From Bradyrhizobium sp. 195 (GTDB taxonomy: Bacteria > Pseudomonadota > Alphaproteobacteria > Rhizobiales > Xanthobacteraceae), in contig NZ_CP082161.1 in assembly GCF_023101665.1 (NCBI RefSeq), forward strand, positions 5,952,001 to 6,016,000: DNA of 64,000 bases, written 5' to 3'. This document shows positions 697-36,825 of the stretch, piece by piece (the first letter of the stretch is position 1; each line of letters opens with the position of its first letter). The notes below the pieces were generated by a model, which ran no database searches, was not told the DNA's origin, and saw only the letters and a program-made list of their open reading frames with translations. The translations under genes were made by a program, and so were the position numbers.

Positions 697-2175
697 GTGT
701 ACAATCAAGGTGTTATTCCGCTGGCAGCGCGTCCCTACGCCGATCGCCGGGCCTGGATTGGCTGGACGCTGTGCAGCCTGTTTCCTGCAATTTTTCTGCT
801 GGTTCTGCTCGCGCTCACGTCACTTAGCGCCCCCGAACATGACGACTTCTGCTTCGCGGATCTGTACGCGCGTCATGGTTTCATCGACACCGTATCGCTC
901 TTCTATCACTCGCAATCGGGCCGGGTCCTGGCCCTGTGGCTGACCCAGGTTCCGCCCGCGATCTCCGCAGCGGCAGGTGTCAGCCTGCTGTCGGCCTATT
1001 CACTGACGATGGCTGTGAGCGCAGCACTGTTCCTGGCCGCCACGACGCTCGCCATGGCCCGTGCCTGGCCCCGCACCGGCGCTCTCCAATTGACTTTCCT
1101 CGCGCTTGCCTTCGCGAGCACCGTGGTCAGCGCGGCGCCGAGTGTTCGGGACCTGCTCTACTGGCTGTCGGCCGTGACCTGCTATGTCCCGCCCGCCTTG
1201 GTCACCGTGCTGATCCTCGGGGAGTGCATTCGGGCGCTTGATCGGCAAGCCGGCTTCTCCTGGACGCTCAGCCTTGCGATGGCGCTAGGCGGTTTCGTGG
1301 CTGCGCTGGGCAACGAATTTACCGGCGCCTGGCTCCTGCTGATCGTCTCGGCTTCGCTGGGCGCGCGCCATCTCTTTGGCCAGCAGCGGCAGATCGTGCA
1401 TCACACCCTGATCGCGGCTGCCATCGCGATCGGGTGGATCATCGTTGTCTCCGCCAGTGGCAACAGCACGCGCATGGAACAACTCCCGAACGGCGGGCAT
1501 GTGACATGGTCGGTGCTTCAAGCGCTTATCGATTCGCTCGCCGGTCTCGGTCGTTTCCTTCGAGAGCCCGCCATCGTCGCCTGGCTCGCCGCTGTCGGTC
1601 TCATCGCATTGATCGCGCCTGACCCGGCGCCCAAAGCGCCGCAAAAGAACAAGCTGCTGGCTCTCGGCACGATCGCGATCTGCCTGGCGTGCTGCTATTT
1701 CGAATATTTCGCTCATCGCTATGCGACGGGCATGCGGCTCGTCGAAAGGGCGCAGAACCAGGCATTGATCCTGCTGCTGTTCGGATCGACGCTGGGCGTC
1801 AAGCTGATCGTCGGCGCTTACCGCCCGCAACTGCGCGAACGGGTTGCGGCGGGAGCGTTTCGCGGCCTGCTCGGTCCCATCGGGATGCCTGCGGGCCTGA
1901 TGCTGCTCACGATCGCCTCGCTCTGCCTGAGCTCGACAGCATCTCAGCTGCGAGCGCAGTGGCAGGGCCTGTATCCGTATTGGCGGGAGAGCGCCGAACG
2001 GCATGCCCTCCTGACGACGAGCCGCGAGCCGGTTGTCGCGGTTCCCCGGCACAAATGGACGCCATCCCTGCTGATGACCGCCGATGTGACTGAGAACGCC
2101 GACCGGTTGCCGAATGACTGCGTCGCCAGATATTACCACAAGTCCGCCGTCTACGCTGCCGACACGCCGCGATGA
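697..2175 (+). CDS. Multi-pass membrane protein, GT-C/DUF6056-like
   Basis: A 492-residue hydrophobic protein with about ten or more predicted transmembrane stretches and a hydrophilic C-terminal tail. The start is a GTG at 697 with a strong ribosome site (GGAGGGGG, 683-690) directly upstream; no suitable ATG is nearby. After the first membrane helix, an EHDDFCFADLYARHG segment puts two acidic residues in the first extracytoplasmic loop, as in GT-C fold polyprenyl-phosphate-sugar glycosyltransferases and the uncharacterised DUF6056 group. The following gene is a GtrB-like polyprenyl-phosphate glycosyltransferase. The pair therefore looks like a GtrB/GtrC-type decoration system, in which this protein would transfer the lipid-carried sugar in the periplasm. 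The enzymatic role is inferred from fold-like features and context only. Confidence 0.65.
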   Translation: MYNQGVIPLAARPYADRRAWIGWTLCSLFPAIFLLVLLALTSLSAPEHDDFCFADLYARHGFIDTVSLFYHSQSGRVLALWLTQVPPAISAAAGVSLLSAYSLTMAVSAALFLAATTLAMARAWPRTGALQLTFLALAFASTVVSAAPSVRDLLYWLSAVTCYVPPALVTVLILGECIRALDRQAGFSWTLSLAMALGGFVAALGNEFTGAWLLLIVSASLGARHLFGQQRQIVHHTLIAAAIAIGWIIVVSASGNSTRMEQLPNGGHVTWSVLQALIDSLAGLGRFLREPAIVAWLAAVGLIALIAPDPAPKAPQKNKLLALGTIAICLACCYFEYFAHRYATGMRLVERAQNQALILLLFGSTLGVKLIVGAYRPQLRERVAAGAFRGLLGPIGMPAGLMLLTIASLCLSSTASQLRAQWQGLYPYWRESAERHALLTTSREPVVAVPRHKWTPSLLMTADVTENADRLPNDCVARYYHKSAVYAADTPR

Positions 2176-2203
2176 CCAATTGCCCAGCTCCAGAGATGCG
2201 AAC

Positions 2204-3166
2204 GTGAAAACAATCAGCGTCATCACGCCCTGCTACAATGAAGAGCTCAACGTTAGAGATTGCTATGAGGCGATCCGGAAGATCTTCGACGGCGAGCTCC
2301 GGGGCTATCGGCGCGAGCACATCTTCTGTGACAACGCCTCCGACGATCGCACCGTCGAGATCCTGCGCGAGATCGCTGCACAGGACCCTGCGGTGAAGAT
2401 CATCGTCAACGCACGCAACTTCGGCCCGCTGCGCAACACTTTCAACGGGGTGATGGCCTCGCGCGGCGACGCTGTGCTCCTGTTCATGCCGGCCGACTTG
2501 CAGGATCCGCCCGAATTGCTTCCCGAATTCGTCAAGCTGTGGGAGGCCGGCTACGAGATCGTCTACGGCATCCGCGCTGTGCGCGAGGAAGGGCGGCTGA
2601 TGCGCGGCATCCGCAATGCCTATTACCGCCTGCTGACCCGCTTCTCCGAGGTCAACGTGCCACCCGGCGTCGGCGACTTCCAGCTCGTCGACCGGCGCGT
2701 GGTCGAGGCCATGCGGCACGTCCGCGACACATATCCTTTCATGCGGATGATGACGTTCGAATGCGGCGGCCGCGCCGTCGGCGTCCCCTACACCTGGCGC
2801 CAGCGCAAGAAAGGACTCTCCAAGAACCGGGCCGGCGCGTTGATCGACCAGGGCCTCAACGGGCTGGTGTCCTTTACCACGGCGCCGGTCCGATTCGGTC
2901 TATTGGCGGGCTTCCTGATCTCGGCCCTGAGCATCGGCTACGCCATCGTCAATTTCGTGGTCGGCCTCGTCCTGTACCGGCAGCTTGCCGAGCCCGGCAT
3001 CATCACGCTGATCGTCGCCATGTTCTTCTTCGGCGGCGTGCAACTGTTCTTCATGGGCATGATCGGCGAGTACGTCCTCGCGATTTACGGACAGGTACGT
3101 GAGAAGCCCGTGGTGTTCGAGCGCGAACGCGTCAATTTCGATCCGTCACCGCCGTCCGGCACCTGA
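2204..3166 (+). CDS. GtrB/DPM1-like polyprenyl-phosphate glycosyltransferase
   Basis: A family 2 glycosyltransferase that would move a sugar (typically Glc or Man) from a nucleotide donor to undecaprenyl phosphate. The N-terminus has the VITPCYNEE nucleotide-binding strand (residues 6-14), then DNASDDRT, and the ADLQDPPE metal site (about residues 97-104) typical of the DPM1-like bacterial subgroup. Two transmembrane helices lie near the C-terminus (the AGFLISALSIGYAIV and LIVAMFFFGGVQLFFMG segments). I chose the GTG at 2204 because family members begin immediately before this strand. An ATG at 2114 is in frame but would overlap the upstream gene by 62 bases and add about 30 residues unlike the family. 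It pairs with the preceding membrane protein. Confidence 0.85.
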   Translation: MKTISVITPCYNEELNVRDCYEAIRKIFDGELRGYRREHIFCDNASDDRTVEILREIAAQDPAVKIIVNARNFGPLRNTFNGVMASRGDAVLLFMPADLQDPPELLPEFVKLWEAGYEIVYGIRAVREEGRLMRGIRNAYYRLLTRFSEVNVPPGVGDFQLVDRRVVEAMRHVRDTYPFMRMMTFECGGRAVGVPYTWRQRKKGLSKNRAGALIDQGLNGLVSFTTAPVRFGLLAGFLISALSIGYAIVNFVVGLVLYRQLAEPGIITLIVAMFFFGGVQLFFMGMIGEYVLAIYGQVREKPVVFERERVNFDPSPPSGT

Positions 3167-3179
3167 CGCGCAGGCGACG

Positions 3180-4103
3180 TCAGCCCTTCGCCAGCGACTG
3201 CTCGATCCGCGCGACGATCGCCTCGGCTGAAAGGCCGGCGGCATCGAGCAGCGCCTCGCGCGATCCCGCCTGCGAGGTCTTGCCGCCCTGCTCGGGAATG
3301 CCGATGCCCGTGATCGGCGGCCGGACTGCGTCGCCGGCAAACGCGCCCGCGACCAGACTGAACAAACCACCGCGCAGAATGTGCTCTTCCAGCGTCACGA
3401 TGAGCGAAGCGCCGCGCACGGCGTCTCGGATCGCGCCTTCGTCGAGGGGCTTCAGGCAGGAGACGCTGACTACACCGACGTCGCGGCCCCGCCCGGCAAG
3501 CTCCCCGGCTGCAGCAAGGGCGCGCGAGGCGATCGGCCCCGATGCGAGGATGACGACATCCCGTCCGACACGCAAAACCCTGGGTTTGCGCAGGTCAGTC
3601 ACGGCGGCGCCAAGATTCGGCTCCCCCTGGCGGCTGAGCCGCAAGTAGGACGGCTTGCCGCTCGTTGCGATCAGACGCGTCGCAGCCCGCACCTCCGAGG
3701 GATCGCAGGGCACGAACACCTCGATGCCCGGCAGCATCGACATGATCCCCGCATCCTCCAGCGCATGGTGGGTGTAGCCCTGGCTGCCATAGGCATAGCC
3801 GGCGCCCACCGCCACGACCTTGACGTCGGCGCCGTGGTAGCAGACGTCGTTGCGGAGTTGCTCGAGGCACCGCAATGTCGGGAAGTTTCCGATCGAGTAG
3901 ATGAAGACCGTCTTGCCCGACAGCGCGATGCCGGCGGCGATGCCCGCCATGTTCTGCTCGGCAACGCCGACATTGAGATAGCGATCGGGGAACTTGGCCG
4001 CAAACGGTTCCAGCACGGAGTAGCCGAGATCGCCGCAGAGCAGCCAGAGGTCGGGGTTCTCGCTCGCGGCCTGCGACAGGCTCTCGATGAACGTCGTCCT
4101 CAT
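3180..4103 (-). CDS. Transketolase C-terminal subunit (split transketolase)
   Basis: 307 residues covering the pyrimidine-binding and C-terminal domains of transketolase. The VGVAEQNMAGIAAG block (about residues 45-58) contains the glutamate that activates thiamine diphosphate. The C-terminal third is the transketolase_C fold (VGRDVVILASGP onward). It is encoded right after the N-terminal subunit with a 4-base ATGA overlap, so the two are almost certainly made together and form one heteromeric enzyme. Stand-alone split transketolases of this size are frequent in sugar and secondary-metabolite clusters, where they transfer a two-carbon ketol unit, rather than in the pentose phosphate pathway. 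In this cluster a role in making a branched or chain-extended sugar is plausible but unproven. Confidence 0.88.
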   Translation of the reverse strand: MRTTFIESLSQAASENPDLWLLCGDLGYSVLEPFAAKFPDRYLNVGVAEQNMAGIAAGIALSGKTVFIYSIGNFPTLRCLEQLRNDVCYHGADVKVVAVGAGYAYGSQGYTHHALEDAGIMSMLPGIEVFVPCDPSEVRAATRLIATSGKPSYLRLSRQGEPNLGAAVTDLRKPRVLRVGRDVVILASGPIASRALAAAGELAGRGRDVGVVSVSCLKPLDEGAIRDAVRGASLIVTLEEHILRGGLFSLVAGAFAGDAVRPPITGIGIPEQGGKTSQAGSREALLDAAGLSAEAIVARIEQSLAKG

Positions 4104-4918
4104 GCGCCAACCTCGGCCAATGCCTGCGCGAGGAGCTCATCCGAAGGCGAGCGGTAGTGCCATTCGAGCTTGTTCTCCATGAAGCTCACGCCCTTGCCCT
4201 TCATGGTGTGCGCGATCACGACGGTCGGCCGGCCCGATGCCGCCGGCACGCCGCCCAGCACATGTTCCAGCGCAGTGAGATCGTGGCCGTCGATCTCCTC
4301 GACCTGCCAGCCGAACGCCTTCCATTTCTCGGCAAACGGATCGAGGTTCAACACCTCGGCGACCGAGCCAAAACTCTGGATCTTGTTGAAGTCGACGATG
4401 ACGCAGAGATTGTCGAGCCTGTGATGGGGCGCGAACAGGATGCCCTCCCAGTTCGAGCCCTCGTCGCATTCGCCGTCGCTGAGCAGGCAGAACACGCGGC
4501 TGCCCGCACTCGCCGTTCGTGCGGCCAGCGCCATGCCGATTGCAATCGGCAGGCCATGGCCGAGCGAGCCCGTGGAGACCTCGACGCCGGGCACGGCATG
4601 GCTGACGTGTCCGGTGAAGATCGATCCGTCGCGACAATAGGTGTCGAGCTCTGCCGGGGAAAAGAAACCGCTTTCGGCGAGGGCGGCGTACATGATTGCC
4701 GTGGCGTGGCCCTTGCTGAGCACGAAGCGATCGCGGCCCGCTGCTTGCGGCTCGGCCGGATCGATGCGCAGGATCCGCGTATAGAGCACCGCCAGGATGT
4801 CCGCCATCGAGAGGCAGCCGCCGATATGCGAAGCCTTCGCGGCATGCACCATACGCAACGCGTGCGCACGAATGCGTCGTGCGAATTCTTTCGGCTCAGG
4901 AAGATTTGGTCGCGTCAT
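4100..4918 (-). CDS. Transketolase N-terminal subunit (split transketolase)
   Basis: 272 residues forming the thiamine-diphosphate (PP) domain. The characteristic GDG...N cofactor/metal motif is visible as SDGECDEGSNWE with the downstream DFNK asparagine (about residues 146-180). The conserved SHIGGCLSMADILAVLY and SLGHGLPIAIGMALA segments (substrate and cofactor pocket) lie before it. The start overlaps the end of the upstream epimerase gene (4896-5813) by 23 bases, and the stop overlaps the start of the C-terminal subunit by 4. Epimerase, N-subunit and C-subunit therefore form one tight operon. The partner CDP-sugar genes rfbF/rfbG lie upstream on the same strand but are separated by two genes on the other strand. 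Confidence 0.88.
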   Translation of the reverse strand: MTRPNLPEPKEFARRIRAHALRMVHAAKASHIGGCLSMADILAVLYTRILRIDPAEPQAAGRDRFVLSKGHATAIMYAALAESGFFSPAELDTYCRDGSIFTGHVSHAVPGVEVSTGSLGHGLPIAIGMALAARTASAGSRVFCLLSDGECDEGSNWEGILFAPHHRLDNLCVIVDFNKIQSFGSVAEVLNLDPFAEKWKAFGWQVEEIDGHDLTALEHVLGGVPAASGRPTVVIAHTMKGKGVSFMENKLEWHYRSPSDELLAQALAEVGA

Positions 4919-5813
4919 GCCAGTCTACCGTCTCGCGCAATCCCTCATCCAACGGCACGTCGGGCTTCCAGCCCAAGGCGAGCATGCGCGAAACGTCCGC
5001 AGCCAGGACCATAACCTGATCGGGCCGATACGCCAACTCGCCGAAGCCGAGAGCAGCGCCCGGGTCAACCAGATCGCGCAGCCGCGTCACCGTCTCGCGC
5101 AGCGGCGGTGCGTCCGCACTGCCGACATTGAAGATGCCGCTCGCCGCCTCATGCGTGATCGCCAGACGGAAAGCGCTGGCAGCGTCGCGCGCGTGCAGAA
5201 ATCCCCAGCGCTGCTCGCAGGCCGTCAGCGCCATGGGATGCCCGGAGCGCAGGTTCCGAATCATGCTCGGGATCAGCCAGTGATCGGCATCTTTCGGTCC
5301 GTAGGTCGAGAAGATCCGGAGCCACGCCGCACGCAGCCCGCGCTCCTCGCACAGGCGCGTCGCCATCGATCCCGCCGCGAGCTTGGCCATGCCGTACAAC
5401 GTCGTCGGCCGTGGCACGTCGTCCTCCCGGATCGCGCGATCATAGGGTCCGTACTCCGCCTGCGACCCGGCTCCGACGAAGATCCTGGCGCCGGCCTGGG
5501 CTGCAAGTTCGACGAGGCCCACGGTGTCGGCCACGTTGACGGCCTGAACCGGGCTGTTGCGATCGCTCCCTGCGACGCCGCGCCAGGCCATGTGCACGAC
5601 CGCCTCCGGCGCGAACGCCCCCAGTGCTGCGCGCAGCCCGTCCGGGTGCTCCAGGCTGCCCGGGATCACGTGCAGCCGGTCACGAAGCGGCCCGAGGCGC
5701 CAATAGGAACTTGCGGGCCGCAACAGCACGGCCACCTCGTGCCCCCGCGCCATGAGGTCCGCAACGAGATAGGAGCCCAGGAAACCGCTCGCACCGGTGG
5801 CAAAAATACGCAT
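4896..5813 (-). CDS. NAD-dependent epimerase/dehydratase (SDR)
   Basis: A 305-residue extended short-chain dehydrogenase. The Rossmann glycine motif is at the very N-terminus (GASGFLGSYL, residues 8-17). The catalytic Tyr-x3-Lys is YGMAKLAAG (about residues 140-148), and the substrate-specificity region follows with a FSTYGPKD motif. This family acts on nucleotide-bound hexoses (epimerase, reductase or dehydratase); members following CDP-glucose 4,6-dehydratase often reduce or epimerise the 4-keto sugar. It is the first gene of a three-gene operon with the split transketolase, so it probably acts on the transketolase substrate or product. No exact reaction can be read from the sequence. Confidence 0.82.
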   Translation of the reverse strand: MRIFATGASGFLGSYLVADLMARGHEVAVLLRPASSYWRLGPLRDRLHVIPGSLEHPDGLRAALGAFAPEAVVHMAWRGVAGSDRNSPVQAVNVADTVGLVELAAQAGARIFVGAGSQAEYGPYDRAIREDDVPRPTTLYGMAKLAAGSMATRLCEERGLRAAWLRIFSTYGPKDADHWLIPSMIRNLRSGHPMALTACEQRWGFLHARDAASAFRLAITHEAASGIFNVGSADAPPLRETVTRLRDLVDPGAALGFGELAYRPDQVMVLAADVSRMLALGWKPDVPLDEGLRETVDWHDATKSS

Positions 5814-5982
5814 AAACCCCCGGTAGATCAGCTACCCCGGGCCCGTCAATGTCCCGCTTCGGCAACTCCCCCCTGCCCGGCCCCCCTCCCGGCACGGCTG
5901 CAGGCCGATCCGAACTTGATTATCCGGCCGATGCGGCTAAACGGGGGGCCGGATCGAGGTTCGACGACGCAGGGGTAGACGC

Positions 5983-6936
5983 ATGAATGACTTCAGGCTG
6001 GCCATGGTTTCCGCGGGCTTCGAGCACGGCGGGAACGTCACCCATCGTCATTTCGACGGCCATCCCGACCTGCTCGTCTATCCCTTCGAGTCGCAGCTCG
6101 GAAACCGCAACTTCAACGACTTCCTGGCCTCGGTCGAGCGCGTCCAGTACCGCTATCCCGAATTCCCGGAAGGGCTGACGGCCATCGAACTCTACGAGCA
6201 GATGATCGACGAGGAACTGAAGACCTTCCTGCGCAAGCGCAACGGCTCCAAGTTCCGCGATGCCGATTGCGTGTTGGACGAAAAGAAGCGCGTCGCCGAA
6301 TTCGTCCGGCTGTGCGGCGAGGCGCCGATCCCGCGCCGCAAGGTGATCGAAGCCTTCTTCCGTTCGACTTTCACGGCCTGGGAGAACTATTACACCAAGC
6401 CGCGGCCGGACATGGTCCATGTCGGCTACTCCCCCGCCATCGGGATCGATGCCGATCGCATGGTGCGCGACTTTCCCAACATCCGCATCCTGCACATCGT
6501 ACGCAATCCATTCTCGGCCTACCGAGACACCAAGCGCCGCCCGTTCCCGCAGCCGCTGACCAAATACCTGATCACCTGGAACATCTATCACTCGACGGTC
6601 GAGATGTTTGCCAGGATGTACCCGGAGAACGTGCGCATCTTCCGTTACGAGGACCTCGTGGACGACAAGCGCAAGTTCATGACCGAGGCGGCCGGATTCA
6701 TCGGTGTGCCCTTCGCGGACAGCATGCTCTATCCGAGTTGGAACGGCGTCGAGATCAAGGACTCCATCGCGCCCTGGGGAACCGTGCTCAAGAGCACCAG
6801 GGATTACAACCAGGCCGTGATCCAGGAACTCTCGGACGAGGAGCGCAGGCAGATCGCGCAGGGCACCGCAGCCCTCGCCCGTCATTTCGGCTACGACCGA
6901 ATCGACTATCTGAGCCCGCTCTATCGTGCTGAGTAA
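5983..6936 (+). CDS. Sulfotransferase family protein
   Basis: 317 residues. The N-terminal block HGGNVTHRHFDGHPDLLVYP stands at the position of the PAPS 5'-phosphosulfate loop. The 3'-phosphate loop appears as the RILHIVRNPFSAYRDTKRR region (about residues 168-186), where Arg and Ser bind PAPS. The enzyme would move sulfate from PAPS to a hydroxyl, here most likely on a sugar of the surface polysaccharide. ATG at 5983 has AGGGG 8 bases upstream. Its end overlaps the next gene by 11 bases, so the two are translated as a pair. The acceptor is unknown; assignment of the first loop is less certain than the second because the usual Arg/Ser-rich P-loop is atypical. Confidence 0.75.
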   Translation: MNDFRLAMVSAGFEHGGNVTHRHFDGHPDLLVYPFESQLGNRNFNDFLASVERVQYRYPEFPEGLTAIELYEQMIDEELKTFLRKRNGSKFRDADCVLDEKKRVAEFVRLCGEAPIPRRKVIEAFFRSTFTAWENYYTKPRPDMVHVGYSPAIGIDADRMVRDFPNIRILHIVRNPFSAYRDTKRRPFPQPLTKYLITWNIYHSTVEMFARMYPENVRIFRYEDLVDDKRKFMTEAAGFIGVPFADSMLYPSWNGVEIKDSIAPWGTVLKSTRDYNQAVIQELSDEERRQIAQGTAALARHFGYDRIDYLSPLYRAE

Positions 6937-7816
6937 GATCGCGTTCTTCGAAACCGACGACCGCCCCGACATCGCTGCCGATCGCGCGCGCCTCCTGCCC
7001 GCGCTGCGTCAGCATCTGCAATCCTTCGGCCGCAGCGCCACCGTCGTGCCGGCGCCTGGCGGCACGCTCGGCGCCTGCTACGATGCGGATATCTCCGGCG
7101 AAAAGCGCTTTCTGAAGACGCATCTACCGGGCACGAGCGCGCGCGCCAGCCTCGCCAAGGAAGCCGACATCCTCGAGCAGCTCTACGGCAAGATGATCGT
7201 GCTCGACCGTTTCGAGATCCCGCTCGCGGATGGAACGGTGCGGCTCTGCCTCACGATGCCCGCGCTCACGCCGCTGGCCGGCCCGATGGAGCCCGCTGAT
7301 GCCGCTGCGATGGCAGACGCATGCAGTGAGCGGCTCAAGGACTGGCGGCCGGATGGGCTTGCCTCGTTCGAACACTATCTGGCTTCCGCCGCAGTGGCTC
7401 TGAAGACCCTTGCGAGCCGTGGTCTGCTGGAGCAGGCCACCGCGGCCGAAGTGCGCAGGCTGATCACGCTGCTCGGTGATCGTCGCGCGGATCTGCCCGA
7501 GGCGCTCTGTCATGGCGATTTCGGACCGAAGAACATCATGCTCCAGGGAGCCGCACCGCGCGTCATCGACTGGGAAGACGCATTCCGCGGCATCGCCGGC
7601 TACGACTACCTCTATTGGCTGACCTTCATGGAGAATCGGCCGTCCCTGCAAAGGGCCGCCTTCGGCCGAACCGGCCTATCGCCCAAGGTCGAGCGCGCCA
7701 TCCTCGTGCTCGTCGTCCTGCTCAAATCCTATCTGGCCGTCTTGTCGGGCGAGCACCTGAAGCACGCGCTGTCGGCAGAGGACCGCATCGCCGAGATCCT
7801 CGATCTACCGGGCTGA
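6926..7816 (+). CDS. APH-fold kinase (phosphotransferase family)
   Basis: 296 residues with an aminoglycoside/choline-kinase fold. The catalytic loop is CHGDFGPKNIML (HGD-x4-N, about residues 193-204), followed by the metal-binding VIDWEDAF. The N-lobe has an ATP-binding segment around GGTLGACYDAD. The start is a GTG at 6926 inside the end of the sulfotransferase gene. APH-fold enzymes phosphorylate small hydroxylated molecules such as sugars, choline and amino alcohols. In a polysaccharide cluster it probably activates a sugar or a polymer substituent rather than giving drug resistance. The gene ends at 7816, directly abutting the convergent rfbG stop at 7817. Confidence 0.78.
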   Translation: MLSKIAFFETDDRPDIAADRARLLPALRQHLQSFGRSATVVPAPGGTLGACYDADISGEKRFLKTHLPGTSARASLAKEADILEQLYGKMIVLDRFEIPLADGTVRLCLTMPALTPLAGPMEPADAAAMADACSERLKDWRPDGLASFEHYLASAAVALKTLASRGLLEQATAAEVRRLITLLGDRRADLPEALCHGDFGPKNIMLQGAAPRVIDWEDAFRGIAGYDYLYWLTFMENRPSLQRAAFGRTGLSPKVERAILVLVVLLKSYLAVLSGEHLKHALSAEDRIAEILDLPG

Positions 7817-8881
7817 TCAAGCCTGCACAGCGCCAGCAACCTGATCGAGCTGATCGAGCGAGAACCTGCGCAGGTCACGGCCCTCGCGCAGCGCCTTGTA
7901 CCACTCGACGGTCAGCCGTAGGCCCTGGGCCAGATCGAGCCGCGGCGTCCAGCCGAGTTCGCTCCGCGCCTTTGCGCAGTCGAGCCGGAGATAGGCGGCT
8001 TCGTGCGGATGTGGGCCGGCGTCTGCCGTCCACCGTGCGCCGTCGCCCCACAGCGCGATCAGGCGATCGACCACGGTCCCGACCGGCACCTCACTTGCGG
8101 TGTCTGGTCCGAAATTCCAGCCGCCGACGAAACTTTCATCGCTCGCCAATCGCTCGACCAGCGACAGATAGCCGAGCACCGGGTCGAGCGCGTGCTGCCA
8201 GGGCCGCACCGAATTGGGATTGCGGATGCGGAGCGCCTCGCCCGCCAGGAAGGCCTGCATCGCATCGGGCACCAAGCGGTCGCGCGCCCAGTCGCCGCCT
8301 CCGAACACGTTGCCGGCACGCGCGGTCGCAACGCGCGCCGCGCCGCTCGTGTTGAAGAAGCTGTGGCGGTAGGAATGCGTCACGAGCTCGGCGCAGGCCT
8401 TGCTGTTGCTGTAGGGATCGTCACCGCCGAGCCGGTCGCCCTCGCCGAAGGCGGCGCCCGTACCCTTGTTCTCGTAGCACTTGTCGCTGGTGACGTTCAG
8501 GATCACCTGCACCGAGCGCAGATGCCGTGCCGCCTCCAGCACATGCACCGTGCCCATCACGTTGGTCGCGAAGGTCTCGACCGGCTCTTCATAGGAGGGG
8601 CGAACCAGCGCTTGCGCCGCCATATGGATGACGATGTCGGGCTCGGCCTCCGCCATCGCGGCGCGCAAGGTTGGGAGATCGCGGATATCGGCCACGCGGT
8701 GCCTGATGTCGTCGGCGATGCGCGCCGTGACGAACAGCGCGGATGGGTGTGTCGGCGGCAGCGCATAGCCGTAGACGTCAGCCCCGAGACGGCGCAGCAG
8801 CAGCGAGGCCCACGCCCCCTTGAAGCCGGTGTGGCCCGTGAGAAAGACCTTCTTGCCGCGCCAGAATGCCGGATCCGTCAC
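7817..8881 (-). CDS. rfbG: CDP-glucose 4,6-dehydratase
   Basis: Converts CDP-D-glucose to CDP-4-keto-6-deoxy-D-glucose with NAD+. The Rossmann motif is GHTGFKG (residues 16-22), the form characteristic of RfbG rather than of RmlB. The NVTSDKCYENKG segment and the catalytic YSNSK (about residue 155) also fit. The start chosen is GTG at 8881: it overlaps the rfbF stop as GTGA, and GGAGGG lies 4 bases upstream. In-frame ATGs at 8893 and 8914 would put that ribosome site inside the gene. It follows rfbF on the same strand. No RfbH-type C3 dehydrase is in the window, so the 3-hydroxyl is probably retained and the product goes to another enzyme. Confidence 0.93.
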   Translation of the reverse strand: MTDPAFWRGKKVFLTGHTGFKGAWASLLLRRLGADVYGYALPPTHPSALFVTARIADDIRHRVADIRDLPTLRAAMAEAEPDIVIHMAAQALVRPSYEEPVETFATNVMGTVHVLEAARHLRSVQVILNVTSDKCYENKGTGAAFGEGDRLGGDDPYSNSKACAELVTHSYRHSFFNTSGAARVATARAGNVFGGGDWARDRLVPDAMQAFLAGEALRIRNPNSVRPWQHALDPVLGYLSLVERLASDESFVGGWNFGPDTASEVPVGTVVDRLIALWGDGARWTADAGPHPHEAAYLRLDCAKARSELGWTPRLDLAQGLRLTVEWYKALREGRDLRRFSLDQLDQVAGAVQA

Positions 8882-9648
8882 CAGACCCTCCATTTGGCGC
8901 GGTTGCTGGCCCACTCGCCCTCAAGGAAGTTGCGATCGCGTAGCGAGTCCATCGGGTGCCAGAAGCCGTGATGCACATAGGCGCGCAGATCGTCACCGCG
9001 CACCAATTGCTCCATCGGCTCGCGCTCCCAGATCGTGTTGTCGTCTGCGATCAGCTCGCCGACCGAAGGCGACAACAGAAAGAAACCGCCATTGATCCAG
9101 CCGCCGTCGTCATTGGGCTTTTCCTCAAAATTGACGACGCGGTCACCCTCGATCGCGATGGCGCCGAAGCGCTTGGCCGGCCGCACCACCGAAACGGTGG
9201 CGCGGCGCCCATGCGCCTTGTGGAAAGCGATCTCGGCGGCAAGATCGATGTCAGCGACACCGTCGCCATAGGTCAATGCGAAGAAGGGCTCGTCCGCGAC
9301 GTAGGGCAGCACCCGCTTCAGCCGGCCGCCGGTCTGGGTGTCCTCGCCGGTGTCAACCAGCGTCACCCGCCACGGCTCGGCGGTTTCGCGATGCACTTCC
9401 ATCCGGTTCTCGGCGATGTGGAAGGTCACGTCGGACATGTGCAGGAAGTAGTTCGCGAAATACTCCTTGATCATGAAGCCCTTGTAGCCAAGGCAGATCA
9501 CGAAATCATGGAAGCCGTAGTGGCTGTAGATCTTCATGATGTGCCACAGGATGGGCCGCCCACCGATCTCCACCATCGGCTTCGGTCGCGTGCTGGTCTC
9601 CTCCGCGATTCGCGTGCCGAGGCCTCCCGCAAGAATTACGACTTTCAT
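8878..9648 (-). CDS. rfbF: Glucose-1-phosphate cytidylyltransferase
   Basis: 256 residues. Makes CDP-glucose from CTP and glucose-1-phosphate, the entry step for CDP-deoxy sugars. The N-terminal nucleotide-binding loop is LAGGLGTRIAEETSTRPKPM (residues 6-25), with the G-G-x-G-T-R and P-K-P-M blocks. TYGDGVADID (about residue 126) carries the metal-binding aspartate, and the length matches the RfbF family. It is the first gene of the two-gene rfbF-rfbG unit and starts opposite uxs across a 219-base AT-richer gap. The gene order fits a supply line to the split-transketolase/epimerase operon located downstream on the same strand. Confidence 0.94.
   Translation of the reverse strand: MKVVILAGGLGTRIAEETSTRPKPMVEIGGRPILWHIMKIYSHYGFHDFVICLGYKGFMIKEYFANYFLHMSDVTFHIAENRMEVHRETAEPWRVTLVDTGEDTQTGGRLKRVLPYVADEPFFALTYGDGVADIDLAAEIAFHKAHGRRATVSVVRPAKRFGAIAIEGDRVVNFEEKPNDDGGWINGGFFLLSPSVGELIADDNTIWEREPMEQLVRGDDLRAYVHHGFWHPMDSLRDRNFLEGEWASNRAKWRVW
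8886..8891 (-). promoter_or_regulatory. Ribosome binding site setting the rfbG start
   Basis: On the minus strand GGAGGG sits 4 bases before the GTG at 8881, inside the end of rfbF. It decides between three in-frame starts and indicates translational coupling to rfbF through the GTGA overlap. Confidence 0.65.
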
Positions 9649-9757
9649 TCACCTGCTCCGAACGGGAGGCACGCTCCCCGCGTATTCCAGACGGCTTCTA
9701 TACGAAGTGGCGGGACCTGGAAAATCATCGGTCCTCAAGCAACTCCCAGAGATCAAT

Positions 9758-9773
9758 AGGTATTTAATTACCT
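9758..9773. promoter_or_regulatory. AT-rich palindrome in the rfbF/uxs divergent gap
   Basis: AGGTA-TTTAAT-TACCT is a 16-base inverted repeat in a locally AT-rich patch of an otherwise GC-rich region. It lies 110 bases before rfbF and 95 before uxs, so it could be an operator or part of divergent promoters. No clear -35/-10 pair was identified around it. Confidence 0.3.
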
Positions 9774-9867
9774 TTATGCAAAGCTATTGGCGTTTTCGCC
9801 CGTAGCCGATACCACTCTGCCCGCCGCAGCGGGACGAGACCGTCCCGAGACCCAGCTGGAACCGATC

Positions 9868-10830
<963 letters not shown>

Positions 10831-10869
10831 TCTGCTCGCAACTCCAGTCGTTCGCAGCGAGCTACGGCA

Positions 10870-12174
10870 ATGAGCGCACCGCCAGGCATCATCAGCGATT
10901 TGCGCGCCGGCCTGGACTCGAAATCCGCGCTGACGAAACTGGTGTTGCTGCACAGCGCCGTCACCTGCCTGTCACTGATCGAGGTCGCGACCTTCCAGCT
11001 CTCCATCGACTTCGACCCGAGACGCCTCTGGATCGCGGTCATCGTCGCGGCCGGCTTTTCCGTCGTCTCGCTGCTGTTCGCCTCCGCCCGCTTCAGCTTC
11101 GGCTATTTCGTCGGATTCTACTCCTACACGATGATCCTGGGCTTCCTGTGGATCGACGTCTTCTCCGACTACAATTACCCGCGATTGCTTGCAGGAGTTT
11201 CGGCGGCATTGGCGCTGCTGCTCTTCCTGATGCCCACCCTGTTCATCCGGGCGCCGCTGCGGCAATTCGTGACCCTGTCCAACGCCCGTTTCGAGCACCT
11301 GCTTACGCTCGTTCTGGCGGTCTCTATCGCCACCATCGCGGTGGCTTCGACCTACAATTTCCGTCTGGTCTCGGTCGCGCGCATTTACGACTTCCGCGAC
11401 ACCCTCGAATTTCCGGGAGCGCTGCGATATCTGATAGGATGGGTCTCCAGCACGCTGCTGCCGTTCGCCTTCGCCTGCTACTGGCTGCTCGGCCATCGCG
11501 TCCGCGCCGTCCTCGTCCTGGTCCTTCTATTGTTGTTCTATCCCGTCACGCTGACGAAGTTCGCGTTATTCACGCCGGCCTGGTTGATCGCGCTGGTCGT
11601 GCTGTCACGGTTTCTGGAGGCGAGAACATCGGTCATCGCATCGATTTTCGTCCCGATGCTGATCGGGCTACTCGTGATCTGGCTGACAGAGGCTAGCCTG
11701 AGGAGCATTCCCGGCAGATATTTCGACATCGTCAACATCCGGATGATGGCGACGGCATCGGGCGCTCTCGACCTGTACAACCATTTCTTTGCGAGCCACC
11801 CGCTGACCTGGTTCTGCCAGATCTCCGTGCTCAAGCCGCTGGTGTATTGTCCTTACGAGGAGCCGCTCGCGGTGGTGATGCAGAACACCTACGATTTCGG
11901 CAATTTGAACGCGTCGCTGTTTGCGACGGAAGGAATCGCGTCCGTCGGCCCCTGGCTGGCACCGCTGACCGCGCTCGCGGCAGGCCTCGTTCTGGCGCTC
12001 GGTAATCGCGCCTCCGCAGGCCTCTCGCCTCGCTTTGTCCTGATGTCATCAGGCGTGCTGCCGCACGTCCTGCTCAACGTGCCGCTCACCGTCGCCATGG
12101 TTACCCACGGCACCGCCATCCTGTTCCTGCTCTGGTACGTGATGCCCCGCAACGTGTTCGAAGAGAAGCCGTGA
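10870..12174 (+). CDS. Multi-pass membrane protein, candidate O-antigen polymerase
   Basis: 434 residues with about ten to twelve hydrophobic segments spread over the whole length and a larger, more polar loop around residues 270-350. This pattern is common in Wzy-type polysaccharide polymerases, which are hard to recognise by sequence. It sits between uxs and a CgeB-like glycosyltransferase, and the same cluster has a Wzx-like flippase and no other candidate polymerase. Its stop (12172-12174) lies 4 bases before the next start, implying co-translation. No family motif was recognised; the polymerase label rests on topology and location only. Confidence 0.5.
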   Translation: MSAPPGIISDLRAGLDSKSALTKLVLLHSAVTCLSLIEVATFQLSIDFDPRRLWIAVIVAAGFSVVSLLFASARFSFGYFVGFYSYTMILGFLWIDVFSDYNYPRLLAGVSAALALLLFLMPTLFIRAPLRQFVTLSNARFEHLLTLVLAVSIATIAVASTYNFRLVSVARIYDFRDTLEFPGALRYLIGWVSSTLLPFAFACYWLLGHRVRAVLVLVLLLLFYPVTLTKFALFTPAWLIALVVLSRFLEARTSVIASIFVPMLIGLLVIWLTEASLRSIPGRYFDIVNIRMMATASGALDLYNHFFASHPLTWFCQISVLKPLVYCPYEEPLAVVMQNTYDFGNLNASLFATEGIASVGPWLAPLTALAAGLVLALGNRASAGLSPRFVLMSSGVLPHVLLNVPLTVAMVTHGTAILFLLWYVMPRNVFEEKP

Positions 12175-13481: not shown

Positions 13482-13928
13482 ATGGAACACGTCGAACAAG
13501 TTCGATTCGGCGATCAGCTTTATGCGATCATCGTGCGGGCCTCGTTCCGCGAGCCGGGCATCCACTTCTTTTCGACGCCGGAGCTGTCCCAGCAGCTCGC
13601 CTTCATGAGTCATCCGCAAGGCAAGACCATCGAGCCTCATCGCCACAACAAGGTGACGCGCGAGGTGCACTACACTCAGGAGGTCCTCCTGATCCAGAAG
13701 GGCAAACTCCAGGTCGACTTCTACACGGTCGAGGAAACTTATCTCGAAAGCCGCGTGCTCTGTGCCGGCGACATCATCCTGTTGTGCAGCGGCGCCCACG
13801 GCTTCCACGTGCTCGAGCCGCTCGAGATGTTCGAGATCAAGCAAGGTCCCTATTCCGGCGAGAACGACAAGACCCGCTTTGCCGAGGCCTCCCCGTCCGA
13901 AATCCGGATCAAGGGGCCAAACCTGTGA
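13482..13928 (+). CDS. Cupin-fold protein of sugar-biosynthesis cluster
   Basis: 148 residues. ATG at 13482 has TGAGG 6 bases upstream; an in-frame TTG at 13470 is less likely. A cupin double-stranded beta-helix is visible: the EPHRHNKVTREVHYTQEVL segment has the His-x-His and Glu metal ligands, and GDIILLCSGAHGF is the second cupin motif. Small cupins next to DegT aminotransferases in LPS clusters are often keto-isomerases or sugar-acyl enzymes of the FdtA/WxcM type, but this one is not a clear match. The stop overlaps the aminotransferase start as GTGA. It may act on the same keto-sugar; its function is open. Confidence 0.65.
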   Translation: MEHVEQVRFGDQLYAIIVRASFREPGIHFFSTPELSQQLAFMSHPQGKTIEPHRHNKVTREVHYTQEVLLIQKGKLQVDFYTVEETYLESRVLCAGDIILLCSGAHGFHVLEPLEMFEIKQGPYSGENDKTRFAEASPSEIRIKGPNL

Positions 13929-15046
13929 CCGCACCGTTCATTCCGGTCAACACGCCGCTGCTCGACGGCAACGAAGCCGACTATCTCGCCGAATGCATCC
14001 GGACAGGATGGATCTCCTCGGAGGGCCCGTTCATCAAGCGCTTCGAGCAGGCGATGGCCGAGGCCGCCGGACGACGACACGGCATCGCCGTAACCAACGG
14101 CTCGGTCGCGCTCGACATCGCCGTCCATGCCCTTGGGCTCGATGAGGGGTCCGAAGTCATCATCCCGACCTTCACCATCATCAGTTGCGCGGCCGCGGTG
14201 CTGCGCGCGGGTCTCGTGCCCGTCGGGGTCGACTGTGATGCCGCGACCTGGAACATGACGGCCGAGGGCGTGGAAGCCGCGATCACGCCGCGCACGCGCG
14301 CGATCATGGTGGTCCACATCTACGGTCTGCCGGTCGACCTCGATCCGATCCTGGCGCTGGCCCGCAAGCACAATCTGAAAGTGATCGAGGACGCCGCCGA
14401 GATGCACGGCCAGACCTATCGCGGCGCGCCTTGCGGAAGCTTCGGCGATGTCTCGACCTTCAGCTTCTATCCGAACAAGCACGTCACGACCGGTGAGGGC
14501 GGCATGATCCTCACCGATGACGACACGCTCGCCGATCGGCTGCAGGGCCTGCGCAATCTATGCTTCCAGCCGCAGCAGCGCTTCGTCCACGAGGAACTCG
14601 GCTGGAACGCGCGCATGACCAACCTCCAGGCTGCACTTGGCGTCGCCCAGGTCGAGCGCCTATCGCGAACGGTCGAGATCAAGCGCCGGATCGGCCGGCT
14701 TTACGATGAACATCTCGCAGGCCTCAACCGCATCCGTCGCCCCGTCGCCCGCACCGGCTATGCCGACAACATCTACTGGGTCTACGGCATCGTGCTGAAC
14801 GACGACGTCCCGTTCGACGCCAAGGAAGCGATGCGGCGCCTCGGCGAAAAGGGCATCGGGACGCGGCCGTTCTTCTGGTGCATGCACGAGCAGCCGGTGT
14901 TGCGCCGAATGGGCCTGATGCGCGACGAAAGCCATCCAAATTCGGAATACATCGCTCGGCGCGGATTTTACCTGCCAAGCGGGCTTGCCCTGACCGACGA
15001 CGAGATCGCGCGCTCGGCCGAGGCGCTGAAGGAGATCCTGGCGTGA
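13925..15046 (+). CDS. DegT/DnrJ/EryC1 aminotransferase, perosamine-synthase-like
   Basis: 373 residues. PLP-dependent sugar aminotransferase. The internal-aldimine lysine is K185 in YPNKHVTTGEGG; VIEDAAEMHG (about 153-162) carries the PLP-pyridine aspartate, and TNGSVALDIA the phosphate-binding loop. The TGWISSEGPFIKRFE and HIYGLPVDLDPIL blocks resemble GDP-perosamine synthase (4-amination of a 4-keto-6-deoxy sugar) more than the 3-amino subgroup. The start is GTG at 13925, overlapping the cupin stop; the methyltransferase begins in the same GTGA way at the other end. The substrate could be CDP-4-keto-6-deoxyglucose made by rfbG or another nucleotide sugar from outside the window. Confidence 0.88.
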   Translation: MTAPFIPVNTPLLDGNEADYLAECIRTGWISSEGPFIKRFEQAMAEAAGRRHGIAVTNGSVALDIAVHALGLDEGSEVIIPTFTIISCAAAVLRAGLVPVGVDCDAATWNMTAEGVEAAITPRTRAIMVVHIYGLPVDLDPILALARKHNLKVIEDAAEMHGQTYRGAPCGSFGDVSTFSFYPNKHVTTGEGGMILTDDDTLADRLQGLRNLCFQPQQRFVHEELGWNARMTNLQAALGVAQVERLSRTVEIKRRIGRLYDEHLAGLNRIRRPVARTGYADNIYWVYGIVLNDDVPFDAKEAMRRLGEKGIGTRPFFWCMHEQPVLRRMGLMRDESHPNSEYIARRGFYLPSGLALTDDEIARSAEALKEILA

Positions 15047-35064: not shown

Positions 35065-35913
35065 CTAGTGATACCCGCCAGCGGTAGCCGGCGTCGTGTC
35101 CGGAGCATTGCCGTTAATCTGGTTGTCCAGATAGGACAGCACGTTGCCGGTCGTGGCTGCGCCGAGATTGTTGACGATCACGGAGCGGCCGATCCGCACC
35201 CCAGCAGCGCCGCTGAGGGCGAGGCCCGTGCTCAAGTTCTCCGAGATGTTGCTGTTGTTGACCTGGACGTTGGACGATCCCAGCACGTTCACGCCGACGA
35301 AGTTGTTGTGAATGGCCGTATTGTTGATCAGGACCCGGGAGCTGCCGCCGTTCGTGTTGATACTGATCCCGGCGCCAGCGGCAGCGGCGCCGTTATGGGA
35401 GATCACGCTGTCGCGGATCATCAGCATCGAGTTGAAGTTCGACGGATTCGAGAAAATGCCGGTTCCCGACGCGCCGTTGAAGTCCCTGATGAAGCAATGC
35501 TCGATGACTACCGAGGCCGCTTGGAGGATGTTGACGCCCTTGACGCCGGTGCCGGCCCCCTCGATGTCGAGGCCGCGCAGCACGATGTGATCGGTCGCCG
35601 CGGCGTTGACGTTGATGCCGTTGGTGCCCGACGCGAGGATGCTGCCGACGACGCCTTCGCAATAAATCGTCATCGCCTTGGTGATGGTCACCGTGCCGAA
35701 GCCCGCGGAATCCAGGCAGTTGATCTCGCCGCCCGCGGCCGTCTTCGAGATCGCACCGGCGAAGGTCTTGCACGGAGCGGTGCGACTGCACGGATTGACG
35801 TCATCGCCGACGCCGGACACCCACGTTCTGGTCGCCTGGGCATGAGCCGGCTGCGACACGGCGAATGGCAAGAGGAATCCCGCTACAAGAGCCCATAGAG
35901 CAATACGACGCAT
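35065..35913 (-). CDS. Secreted right-handed beta-helix protein, copy B
   Basis: 282 residues. A signal peptide (LWALVAGFLLPFAVSQPAHAQA) is followed by a pectate-lyase-like parallel beta-helix: repeated short strands such as GLDIEGAGTGVKGVNIL, VVIEHCFIRDF, LMIRDSVISHN and VQVNNSNISENL. The entry segment WVSGVGDDVNPCSRTAPCKTF, with paired cysteines, is shared by a family of uncharacterised exported beta-helix proteins. No catalytic residues of a polysaccharide lyase were recognised. It is a tandem paralogue of 35977-36825, of identical length and very similar throughout. It is followed by a strong terminator. Confidence 0.82.
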   Translation of the reverse strand: MRRIALWALVAGFLLPFAVSQPAHAQATRTWVSGVGDDVNPCSRTAPCKTFAGAISKTAAGGEINCLDSAGFGTVTITKAMTIYCEGVVGSILASGTNGINVNAAATDHIVLRGLDIEGAGTGVKGVNILQAASVVIEHCFIRDFNGASGTGIFSNPSNFNSMLMIRDSVISHNGAAAAGAGISINTNGGSSRVLINNTAIHNNFVGVNVLGSSNVQVNNSNISENLSTGLALSGAAGVRIGRSVIVNNLGAATTGNVLSYLDNQINGNAPDTTPATAGGYH

Positions 35914-35976
35914 GTTGAACCTCCAAAATTGAATGGAAAATTTGGCGTTGTTGCCAGATTGGAAACTTCCGAGGAC

Positions 35977-36825
35977 TTAGTGATACCCACCAGCGGTGGC
36001 CGGCGTCGTGTCCGGGGCGTTGCCGTTGATCTGGTTGTCCAGATACGACAGCACGTTCCCGGAGGTCGCCGCCCCCAGATTGTTGACGATCACCGAGCGG
36101 CCGATCCGTACCGCTGCGCCGCCGGTAAGCGCGAGGCCCGTACCGATATTCTCCGAGATGTTGGAATTGTTGACCTGGACGTTGGCCGATCCCTGCACGC
36201 TCACGCCGACGAAGTTCTTGTGGACGGCCGTGTTGTTGATCAGGCTCCGCGAACTGCCGCCGTTCGTATTGATGCTGATCCCGGCGCCGTCGGCCGCGGT
36301 GCCGTTGTGCGAGATCACGCTGTCGCGGATCATGAGCATCGAGTTGAAGTTTGACGGATTGACGAAGACGCCGACGCCGCCCGCGCTGTTGAAGTTCCTG
36401 ATGAAGCAATGCTCGATGACCACCGAGGCTGCCTGGAGGACGTTGACACCTTTGATGCCGGTTCCGGCCCCGTCGATATCGAGGCCGCGCAGCACGATGT
36501 GATCGGTCGCGGCTGCGTTGACGATGACGCCAGAGCTCCCCGCTGCGAGGATGCCGCCGACGACGCCTTCGCAATAGATCGAGATCGCCTTGGTGATGGT
36601 CACGACGCCGAAACCGCCGGAATCGAGACAATTGATCTCGCCGCCCGCGGCTGTCTTCGAGATCGCGCCGGGAAAGGTCTTGCATGGGGCGGTGCGACTG
36701 CACGGATTGGCATCATCGCCCACGCCGGACACCCACGTCCTGGTGGCCTGAGCATGCGCCGGTTGCGATGCGATCAGCGGTACGAAAAATCCTACAGCCA
36801 GAGCCAAGAGTGCAATTCGACGCAT
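35977..36825 (-). CDS. Secreted right-handed beta-helix protein, copy A
   Basis: 282 residues, the upstream member of the tandem pair. Signal peptide LALAVGFFVPLIASQPAHAQA, then the same CSRTAPCKTF entry motif and beta-helix coils ending in NAPDTTPATAGGYH exactly as in copy B. Differences are scattered and conservative, which suggests a duplication kept under selection. Only 63 bases separate the two copies and no terminator lies between them, so they may be one transcript. The function is not known; surface or matrix carbohydrate binding is possible. Confidence 0.82.
   Translation of the reverse strand: MRRIALLALAVGFFVPLIASQPAHAQATRTWVSGVGDDANPCSRTAPCKTFPGAISKTAAGGEINCLDSGGFGVVTITKAISIYCEGVVGGILAAGSSGVIVNAAATDHIVLRGLDIDGAGTGIKGVNVLQAASVVIEHCFIRNFNSAGGVGVFVNPSNFNSMLMIRDSVISHNGTAADGAGISINTNGGSSRSLINNTAVHKNFVGVSVQGSANVQVNNSNISENIGTGLALTGGAAVRIGRSVIVNNLGAATSGNVLSYLDNQINGNAPDTTPATAGGYH

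Follow-up and report, generated by a model that had tools for sequence, protein, structure and literature searches.

A Split Transketolase beside CDP-Glucose Genes in Bradyrhizobium sp. 195: A Candidate Cassette for a C-Branched CDP-Sugar

Cassette Genes and Layout

The DNA analyzed here (hereafter the window) is a 64,000 bp stretch of Bradyrhizobium sp. 195, corresponding to bases 5952001–6016000 of an 8.3 Mb contig in a genome of 9.14 Mb and three contigs. Near its start lies a cassette in which two genes for a cytidine diphosphate (CDP)-activated sugar, encoding RfbF and RfbG, accompany a transketolase that is split into an N-terminal (TKN) and a C-terminal (TKC) half (Table 1). An earlier note on this DNA had listed rfbF, rfbG, an epimerase and a two-subunit transketolase on one strand; profile models found all five genes on the minus strand between 3180 and 9648, the epimerase being an extended short-chain dehydrogenase/reductase (SDR). 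That list was right as far as it went but overlooked a sulfotransferase-fold protein and an APH-family kinase, a plus-strand pair lying between RfbG and the SDR, which makes the RfbF-RfbG-SDR-TKN-TKC series non-contiguous.

Table 1. Genes of the cassette, with positions in the window
Gene product	Position	Strand	Evidence or remark
TKC, C-terminal half of split transketolase	3180..4103	-	PF02779 and PF02780 (Pyr and C-terminal domains), over cut-off
TKN, N-terminal half of split transketolase, thiamine diphosphate (ThDP)-binding domain	4100..4918	-	PF00456, E 1.5e-44
Extended SDR, Rossmann sugar-nucleotide enzyme	4896..5813	-	Proposed branch reductase or epimerase
Sulfotransferase-fold protein	5983..6936	+	Sulfotransfer_3 Pfam match and sulfotransferase fold
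APH-family phosphotransferase (kinase), partner of the sulfotransferase gene	6926..7816	+	PF01636
RfbG, CDP-glucose 4,6-dehydratase	7817..8914	-	TIGR02622, 446 bits (cut-off 278)
RfbF, glucose-1-phosphate cytidylyltransferase	8878..9648	-	TIGR02623, 427 bits (cut-off 300)

RfbF and RfbG exceeded both equivalog models of the CDP-glucose 4,6-dehydratase pathway. The TKN and TKC genes overlap by 4 bases; as longest open frames, RfbF and RfbG overlap by 37 bases and the SDR and TKN by 23, with later starts for RfbG and TKN favoured by a codon-usage gene caller. Compared to PRK05899.2-5, the two transketolase halves scored 291 and 162 bits, each over its own part, and the cut-off of 488 bits applies to a single chain. 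TKC shares 96% identity with a protein named from Bradyrhizobium diazoefficiens. Among solved structures, TKN and TKC come closest to the two chains of the split transketolase of Carboxydothermus (6yaj, 6yak). This homology, together with the retention of ThDP and donor residues, suggests that TKN and TKC jointly form a ThDP-dependent transketolase. The transketolase Pyr domain has eight matches in this genome, including one full-length transketolase.

The predicted model of the SDR (pLDDT 92.0) is matched at close Z by many epimerases and dehydratases, which does not decide its function. "Epimerase", the name given in the earlier note, is a fold-level name only, a reductase being equally likely. 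A search for promoters returned none in 2000–10900, where four terminators were predicted, no more than in shuffles; an Rfam search likewise gave no matches. The G+C content is 61–69% across the first 24 kb of the window.

The absence of an RfbH-type dehydrase, also pointed out in the earlier note, was upheld genome-wide, the top of 11 RfbH model matches reaching 156.5 bits (cut-off 423), and we accordingly ruled out an RfbH route to a CDP-3,6-dideoxyhexose in this genome. The ThDP gene of the cassette is a transketolase by its domain models. A DegT protein at 13784–15046 was considered as RfbH and rejected (202.9 bits, cut-off 423); it best fits LegC-type aminotransferases, at 305 bits, below their cut-off of 420.

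Linkage of the Transketolase to RfbG in the Genus

Among 242 Bradyrhizobium genomes, 27 carry a window-type TKC (orthologue threshold E 1e-80) and 82 carry an RfbG over its cut-off. In all 27 transketolase genomes RfbG lies on the same contig, 4619–6648 bases away (start to start; under 4900 in 26), compared to 55 of the 215 genomes without this transketolase that have RfbG anywhere (Fisher p 7e-15, with kinship ignored). These counts indicate that the transketolase accompanies RfbF/RfbG, and not the reverse.

Twelve of the 55 RfbG-only genomes were taken for a comparison of the region. In four of them (L133, L135, L137, and L140) RfbF is 93–95% and RfbG 88–91% identical to those of the window, and no transketolase, cassette-type SDR, sulfotransferase or kinase was seen in 17 kb, so the product of RfbF/RfbG has other uses; these four are natural comparison strains for the analysis of lipopolysaccharide (LPS) sugars. 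The other eight encode a 364–421-residue protein near RfbF/RfbG that reads like a C-methyltransferase, a label given by sequence reading (tblastn identity of only 22–26% in six).

Cassette Versions across Phyla

Scanning named genomes with a TKC-homologue alignment gave at least 572 relatives; the best 80 of these (18 close and 62 distant) were kept. The presence of partner genes was assessed by tblastn with identity cut-offs of our own choosing, and many of the distant contigs are short. All 18 closest relatives have RfbF, the SDR and the sulfotransferase, 17 have RfbG, and 16 have the window-type kinase, with a related kinase in the remaining two. The distant relatives include members of Acidobacteriota, Planctomycetota, Armatimonadota, Cyanobacteriota, and Myxococcota. 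RfbF occurs in 26 of these 62, in 24 of them with a dehydratase (15 RfbG and 9 of a second type, an example of which reached 211 bits, below the 278 required for RfbG). The SDR was seen in 23 of the 62, RfbH in 17 (13 with RfbF), the C-methyltransferase in five (four with RfbF) and the sulfotransferase in six.

Three versions of the cassette can be told apart: one with RfbH, one with a C-methyltransferase, and one with the sulfotransferase and kinase. In seven loci (L033, L035, L049, L056, L059, L066, and L086) the latter two genes are co-linear with the SDR and transketolase, and for this reason the inverted pair of the window is counted in the cassette. In L050 a strong RfbH (733 bits, cut-off 423) separates RfbG from the SDR. 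In a tree built from 89 TKC rows, well-supported branches force at least four changes for the sulfotransferase, four for RfbH and two for the C-methyltransferase. As the three versions switch on the tree, the added enzyme looks exchangeable and the transketolase appears to be the constant part. RfbH and the C-methyltransferase both work on 4-keto sugars.

Transketolase Active Site

Each half of the transketolase was aligned in 84 rows (the window, the second split transketolase of its genome at L017, two of the type found in photosynthetic bradyrhizobia, and the 18 close and 62 distant relatives), with E. coli TktA, the host's full-length transketolase and the Carboxydothermus split transketolase as references. 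In the alignment designated A2, the L019 and L030 rows were chosen by match range, and some rows of A3 begin at the longest open frame. In TktA numbering, E160, N185, H261, E411, and H473 are kept in 84/84 rows, D155 in 83/84, and H26, H66, and H100 in 81/84, the rest being gaps. The window enzyme keeps all nine of these residues, which serve ThDP, Mg and the donor. The H100 position is phenylalanine in 1-deoxy-D-xylulose 5-phosphate synthases (PMC7661550), and its retention favours a hydroxyketone donor over pyruvate.

The acceptor side is altered in every relative aligned. TktA H461 is replaced by glycine and L466 by tyrosine in 84/84 rows, F434 by isoleucine in 83/84 and by leucine in one, and no row has aspartate at D469; in the window TKC the replacements are H461 to G, L466 to Y and D469 to Q. 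Because one of the two peptide patterns behind the scan spans D469, the share of glutamine there is biased; neither pattern covers H461 or L466. The host transketolase was misaligned at F434, F437, and Y440 in the 84-row alignment; a second alignment sets F434 right, and at Y440, where the two disagree, we make no claim. H461 has been linked to the phosphate group of natural substrates (PMC3657141), and changes at S385, D469, and R520 of TktA shifted its acceptor from phosphorylated to non-phosphorylated compounds and then to aromatic aldehydes (PMC5073344). Given the loss of H461 and D469, the window enzyme is better described as one that works by transketolase chemistry than as a pentose-phosphate transketolase. 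Split transketolases also lack a linker of ~70 residues, and its absence could make space for bulkier acceptors (PMC7661550).

It could be argued that the enzyme is an ordinary pentose-phosphate transketolase supplying precursors within a sugar cluster, as might be expected from its nearest solved relatives, the two Carboxydothermus chains. We regard this as highly improbable given the replacement of the phosphate-binding H461 in all 84 aligned relatives, the full-length transketolase already present in the genome, and the patchy occurrence of the split enzyme (27 of 242 genomes).

Proposed Pathway and Its Alternatives

We infer, as the earlier note did, that the transketolase adds a two-carbon ketol unit to a CDP-keto sugar, which would probably make these genes a cassette for a C-branched CDP-sugar; the genus-wide linkage to RfbG, the cassettes with RfbH or a C-methyltransferase, and the altered acceptor pocket all back this proposal. 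In the first step, well supported by the model scores, RfbF would make CDP-glucose and RfbG would convert it to CDP-4-keto-6-deoxyglucose. With hydroxypyruvate or a ketose phosphate as donor, the transketolase would then join a two-carbon ketol unit to the C-4 carbonyl, giving a tertiary alcohol that carries a glycoloyl group as its branch. Finally, the SDR may either reduce the ketone of this branch, which would become a 1,2-dihydroxyethyl group, or epimerise the sugar; the sulfotransferase and APH-family kinase might conceivably decorate the sugar or its polymer. The predicted product is a branched octose, activated with CDP and destined for the surface polysaccharide encoded around the cassette. 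This logic would resemble that of YerE with another enzyme: a 4-keto CDP-6-deoxysugar, a two-carbon addition at the ketone and a reduction of the branch.

The order of the last two steps may be the reverse, with the SDR acting first as a 3- or 5-epimerase of the 4-keto sugar and the transketolase using the epimerised product. We consider this order unlikely, though it is the strongest of the alternatives weighed here. It is weakly countered by the analogy with YerE, whose step is followed by a reductase acting on the branch, and by some RfbH-type transketolase loci in which no SDR was found at 38% identity or above (L048, L071, and L078).

Several observations weigh against the addition of a ketol unit to a CDP-keto sugar. 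According to a 2025 review, transketolase carboligation onto a ketone had no experimental precedent (PMC12247030). In the pocket, S385 and R520, both near the substrate, are retained in the window enzyme (position 520 is lysine in 48 and arginine in 36 of the 84 rows). The glycine and tyrosine at H461 and L466 are common to the split transketolases of the heptose-linked loci L017, L124, L147, and L148, and no RfbF or RfbG was found in the stretches read of these four, so the pair marks a changed acceptor and not a CDP-keto sugar as such. Nor is the loss of D469 exclusive to sugar-cluster transketolases, being shared by L145 and L146; as these two are also without the Gly-Tyr pair, glycine and tyrosine are the useful marks. 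Among the distant relatives, the stretch examined held no RfbF in 36 of 62 (in contigs of at least 15 kb, RfbF was present in 19 of 38 and absent from 19), and 27 of 62 showed none of the partner genes sought, from which it follows that the transketolase family is not bound to CDP-glucose. Conversely, RfbF and RfbG nearly like those of the window occur without the rest of the cassette in four of the 12 RfbG-only regions. Lastly, the model of the SDR does not separate a reductase from an epimerase.

Part of this evidence would also fit a cluster that is merely shared, in which RfbF, RfbG, and the SDR make an ordinary CDP-6-deoxyhexose and the transketolase makes a separate sugar, such as a ketose or a chain-extended aldose. 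Such a division of labour would account for transketolases of the same signature in the nucleotide-heptose-type clusters L017, L124, L147, and L148, and for RfbF/RfbG where the transketolase is missing. It sits poorly with the 27/27 linkage of transketolase and RfbG in the genus, with the joint presence of RfbF and a dehydratase in 24 of the 62 distant loci, and with a tree branch (support 99/95, 81 rows, subject to a long-branch warning) that sets the window and the 80 scan loci apart from the heptose-linked transketolases. We judge it improbable, slightly more so than the reversed order of steps, and retain the branched CDP-sugar as the preferred product.

Bradyrhizose Cluster of Photosynthetic Bradyrhizobia

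The earlier note had also hinted at bradyrhizose, a bicyclic sugar of ten carbons in which the C-1 aldehyde forms a ring with the hydroxyl of C-4, C-5 or C-9 (PMC9912281). Its genes and route were called unknown by Busset et al. (2016), who described an 11-gene gdh cluster lying about 40 kb from rfaL, in which gdh is 4,6-dehydratase-like (PMC4743980). Their main text nowhere uses the word "transketolase".

Reaction-centre genes were found in 24 of the 242 Bradyrhizobium genomes, and a wider TKC search of these 24 revealed a split transketolase at 37–38% identity to that of the window in eight. It belongs to an 11-gene cluster that is co-linear in all six loci fetched (L124:4056-14069 and L125–L129), the genes of the other five being 88–100% identical to those of L124. 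The gene order in L124 is HldE-like, nucleotidyltransferase, SDR, GmhA-like isomerase, 4,6-dehydratase-like SDR, TKN, TKC, zinc-type dehydrogenase, HAD-like (by sequence reading, with no Pfam match), APH-family kinase, and methyltransferase. The dehydratase-like SDR, which is the gdh candidate and sits directly upstream of TKN, scored 197 bits to TIGR01181, below the cut-off of 365. In seven of the eight genomes the best Wzy_C (rfaL-type) match lies 19–42 kb from the cluster; in the eighth, a fragmented draft, the two are on separate contigs. Given the 11 co-linear genes, the dehydratase-like SDR and the Wzy_C distance, we take this cluster to be, very probably, the published gdh/O-antigen locus.

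Like the window cassette, the gdh cluster has a split transketolase with the same pocket signature right after a 4,6-dehydratase-like gene; unlike it, the cluster carries HldE-like, GmhA-like, and HAD-like genes instead of RfbF/RfbG, and its transketolase halves are 51% (N) and 37% (C) identical to those of the window. The bradyrhizose-type transketolase occurs in 15 of the 242 genomes (14 at 81–100% identity, one at 43%). As seven of these 15 are without a reaction-centre gene (eight have one), it is not restricted to photosynthetic strains; it is also missing from 16 of the 24 genomes with reaction-centre genes. It is absent from the genome of the window at E 1e-75. The window-type transketolase, in turn, has reaction-centre genes in six of its 27 genomes and is carried by none of the 15 genomes with the bradyrhizose type. 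With different genes and this separation, and with the cassette missing from photosynthetic bradyrhizobia of the ORS278/BTAi1 type, we rejected bradyrhizose as a product of the window cassette; the hint was wrong in that respect but pointed to a family of which a different member sits in the cluster matching the gdh/O-antigen locus.

The ring closures described for bradyrhizose suggest a possible role for that member. A C-9 closure can give a pyranose only if C-9 is bonded to C-4; C-4 (bearing OH, C-3, C-5, and C-9) is then a tertiary alcohol, the kind of centre that forms when a ThDP enzyme adds to a 4-ketone. A 4-keto heptose made by the heptose-type genes would gain C-9 and C-8 from the transketolase; C-8 would close on C-7 by an aldol reaction into a six-membered carbon ring from C-4 to C-9 (the inositol ring), and the methyltransferase of the cluster could supply the tenth carbon. 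This route is drawn from the wording of a review (PMC9912281), not from a structure. We tentatively suggest, as a possible though doubtful generalisation, that a widespread, acceptor-remodelled family of split transketolases builds C-branched and higher-carbon sugars of bacterial surface polysaccharides: a 4-C-branched CDP-octose here, and bradyrhizose from seven heptose carbons, two from the transketolase and perhaps one from the methyltransferase, with aldol closure of the branch to C-7.

Other Split Transketolase Clusters and Window Surroundings

A second split-transketolase cluster is present in the genome of the window itself (L017:6000-17993, at 5355–5374 kb) and matches nine of the 11 genes of the gdh cluster. 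Identities to the L124-type genes are 27% for HldE, 45% for the first SDR, 39% for SIS, 26% for the dehydratase-like gene, 47% for TKN, 42% for TKC, 39% for HAD, 36% for the kinase, and 57% for the methyltransferase; two DegT-like aminotransferases were additionally noted by sequence reading. Clusters of this type also occur in other bradyrhizobia (L142–L144). Two further types lie beside heptose-type genes (L147:940-8201 and L148:205-7275), with an isomerase, a nucleotidyltransferase, and a GHMP-like or HldE-like kinase as neighbours by sequence reading. The transketolases of L017, L147, and L148 all display the Gly-Tyr signature. Those of L145 (2634-8209) and L146 (2668-8397), with leucine at TktA H461, lie near TRAP-type-transport-like genes and an SDR, and are probably catabolic.

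Adjoining the cassette on the plus strand (697–3166), a DUF6056 protein gene overlaps a family-2 glycosyltransferase gene, and this pair may transfer the new sugar. Immediately before the window (L018:791-9644), genes reading like a legionaminic-acid-type pathway suggest a polysaccharide with a nonulosonic acid. Further along the window, the minus strand encodes two adjoining right-handed beta-helix proteins of 251 residues each (35065–36732), which resemble a tandem duplication, and a protein of 1114 residues (37327–40671) that combines matrixin and serralysin-type domains with five tryptophan-rich W_rich_C stretches.

Implications and Comparison with Known Systems

According to the 2025 review (PMC12247030), a transketolase acting on a ketone has been proposed only for streptomycete antibiotics; the present data add a sequence signature and a cassette conserved across many phyla to this idea. 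The split transketolase of the gdh cluster bears on a named open problem, the genes and route of bradyrhizose, and makes its biosynthesis testable. If the proposal is true, these enzymes would be natural biocatalysts for tertiary alcohols with hydroxylated branches. We found no literature linking a transketolase with CDP-glucose genes or bradyrhizose, in a search of the open-access literature only, which is weak evidence of absence.

The same review lists 13 split transketolases predicted to act on ketones, all streptomycete and none characterised in vitro. Like those of miharamycin and amipurimycin, for which hydroxyacetyl transfer to a keto sugar is proposed, the cassette enzyme would act on a keto sugar; unlike them, it stands with CDP-glucose genes in surface-polysaccharide-type clusters of many phyla. 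The Carboxydothermus hydrogenoformans split transketolase (6yaj, 6yak) likewise has two chains and the same ThDP and donor residues, but it keeps H461 and D469, as do TktA and the host's full-length transketolase, and the available description mentions no sugar-nucleotide cluster setting.

A close parallel is YerE and the yersiniose A pathway of Yersinia pseudotuberculosis, which shares the CDP-glucose start, the 4-keto-deoxy acceptor, and the O-antigen-type setting. YerE acts on CDP-3,6-dideoxy-4-keto-glucose (PMC12247030), the sugar that the transketolase of L050 would meet, given the RfbH encoded between RfbG and the SDR there; the genome of the window, unlike the yersiniose A pathway, is without RfbH. 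In both systems a ThDP enzyme is proposed to give a tertiary alcohol at C-4, but where YerE is of the decarboxylase type and uses pyruvate, the cassette has a split transketolase, and a hydroxylated two-carbon branch is predicted.

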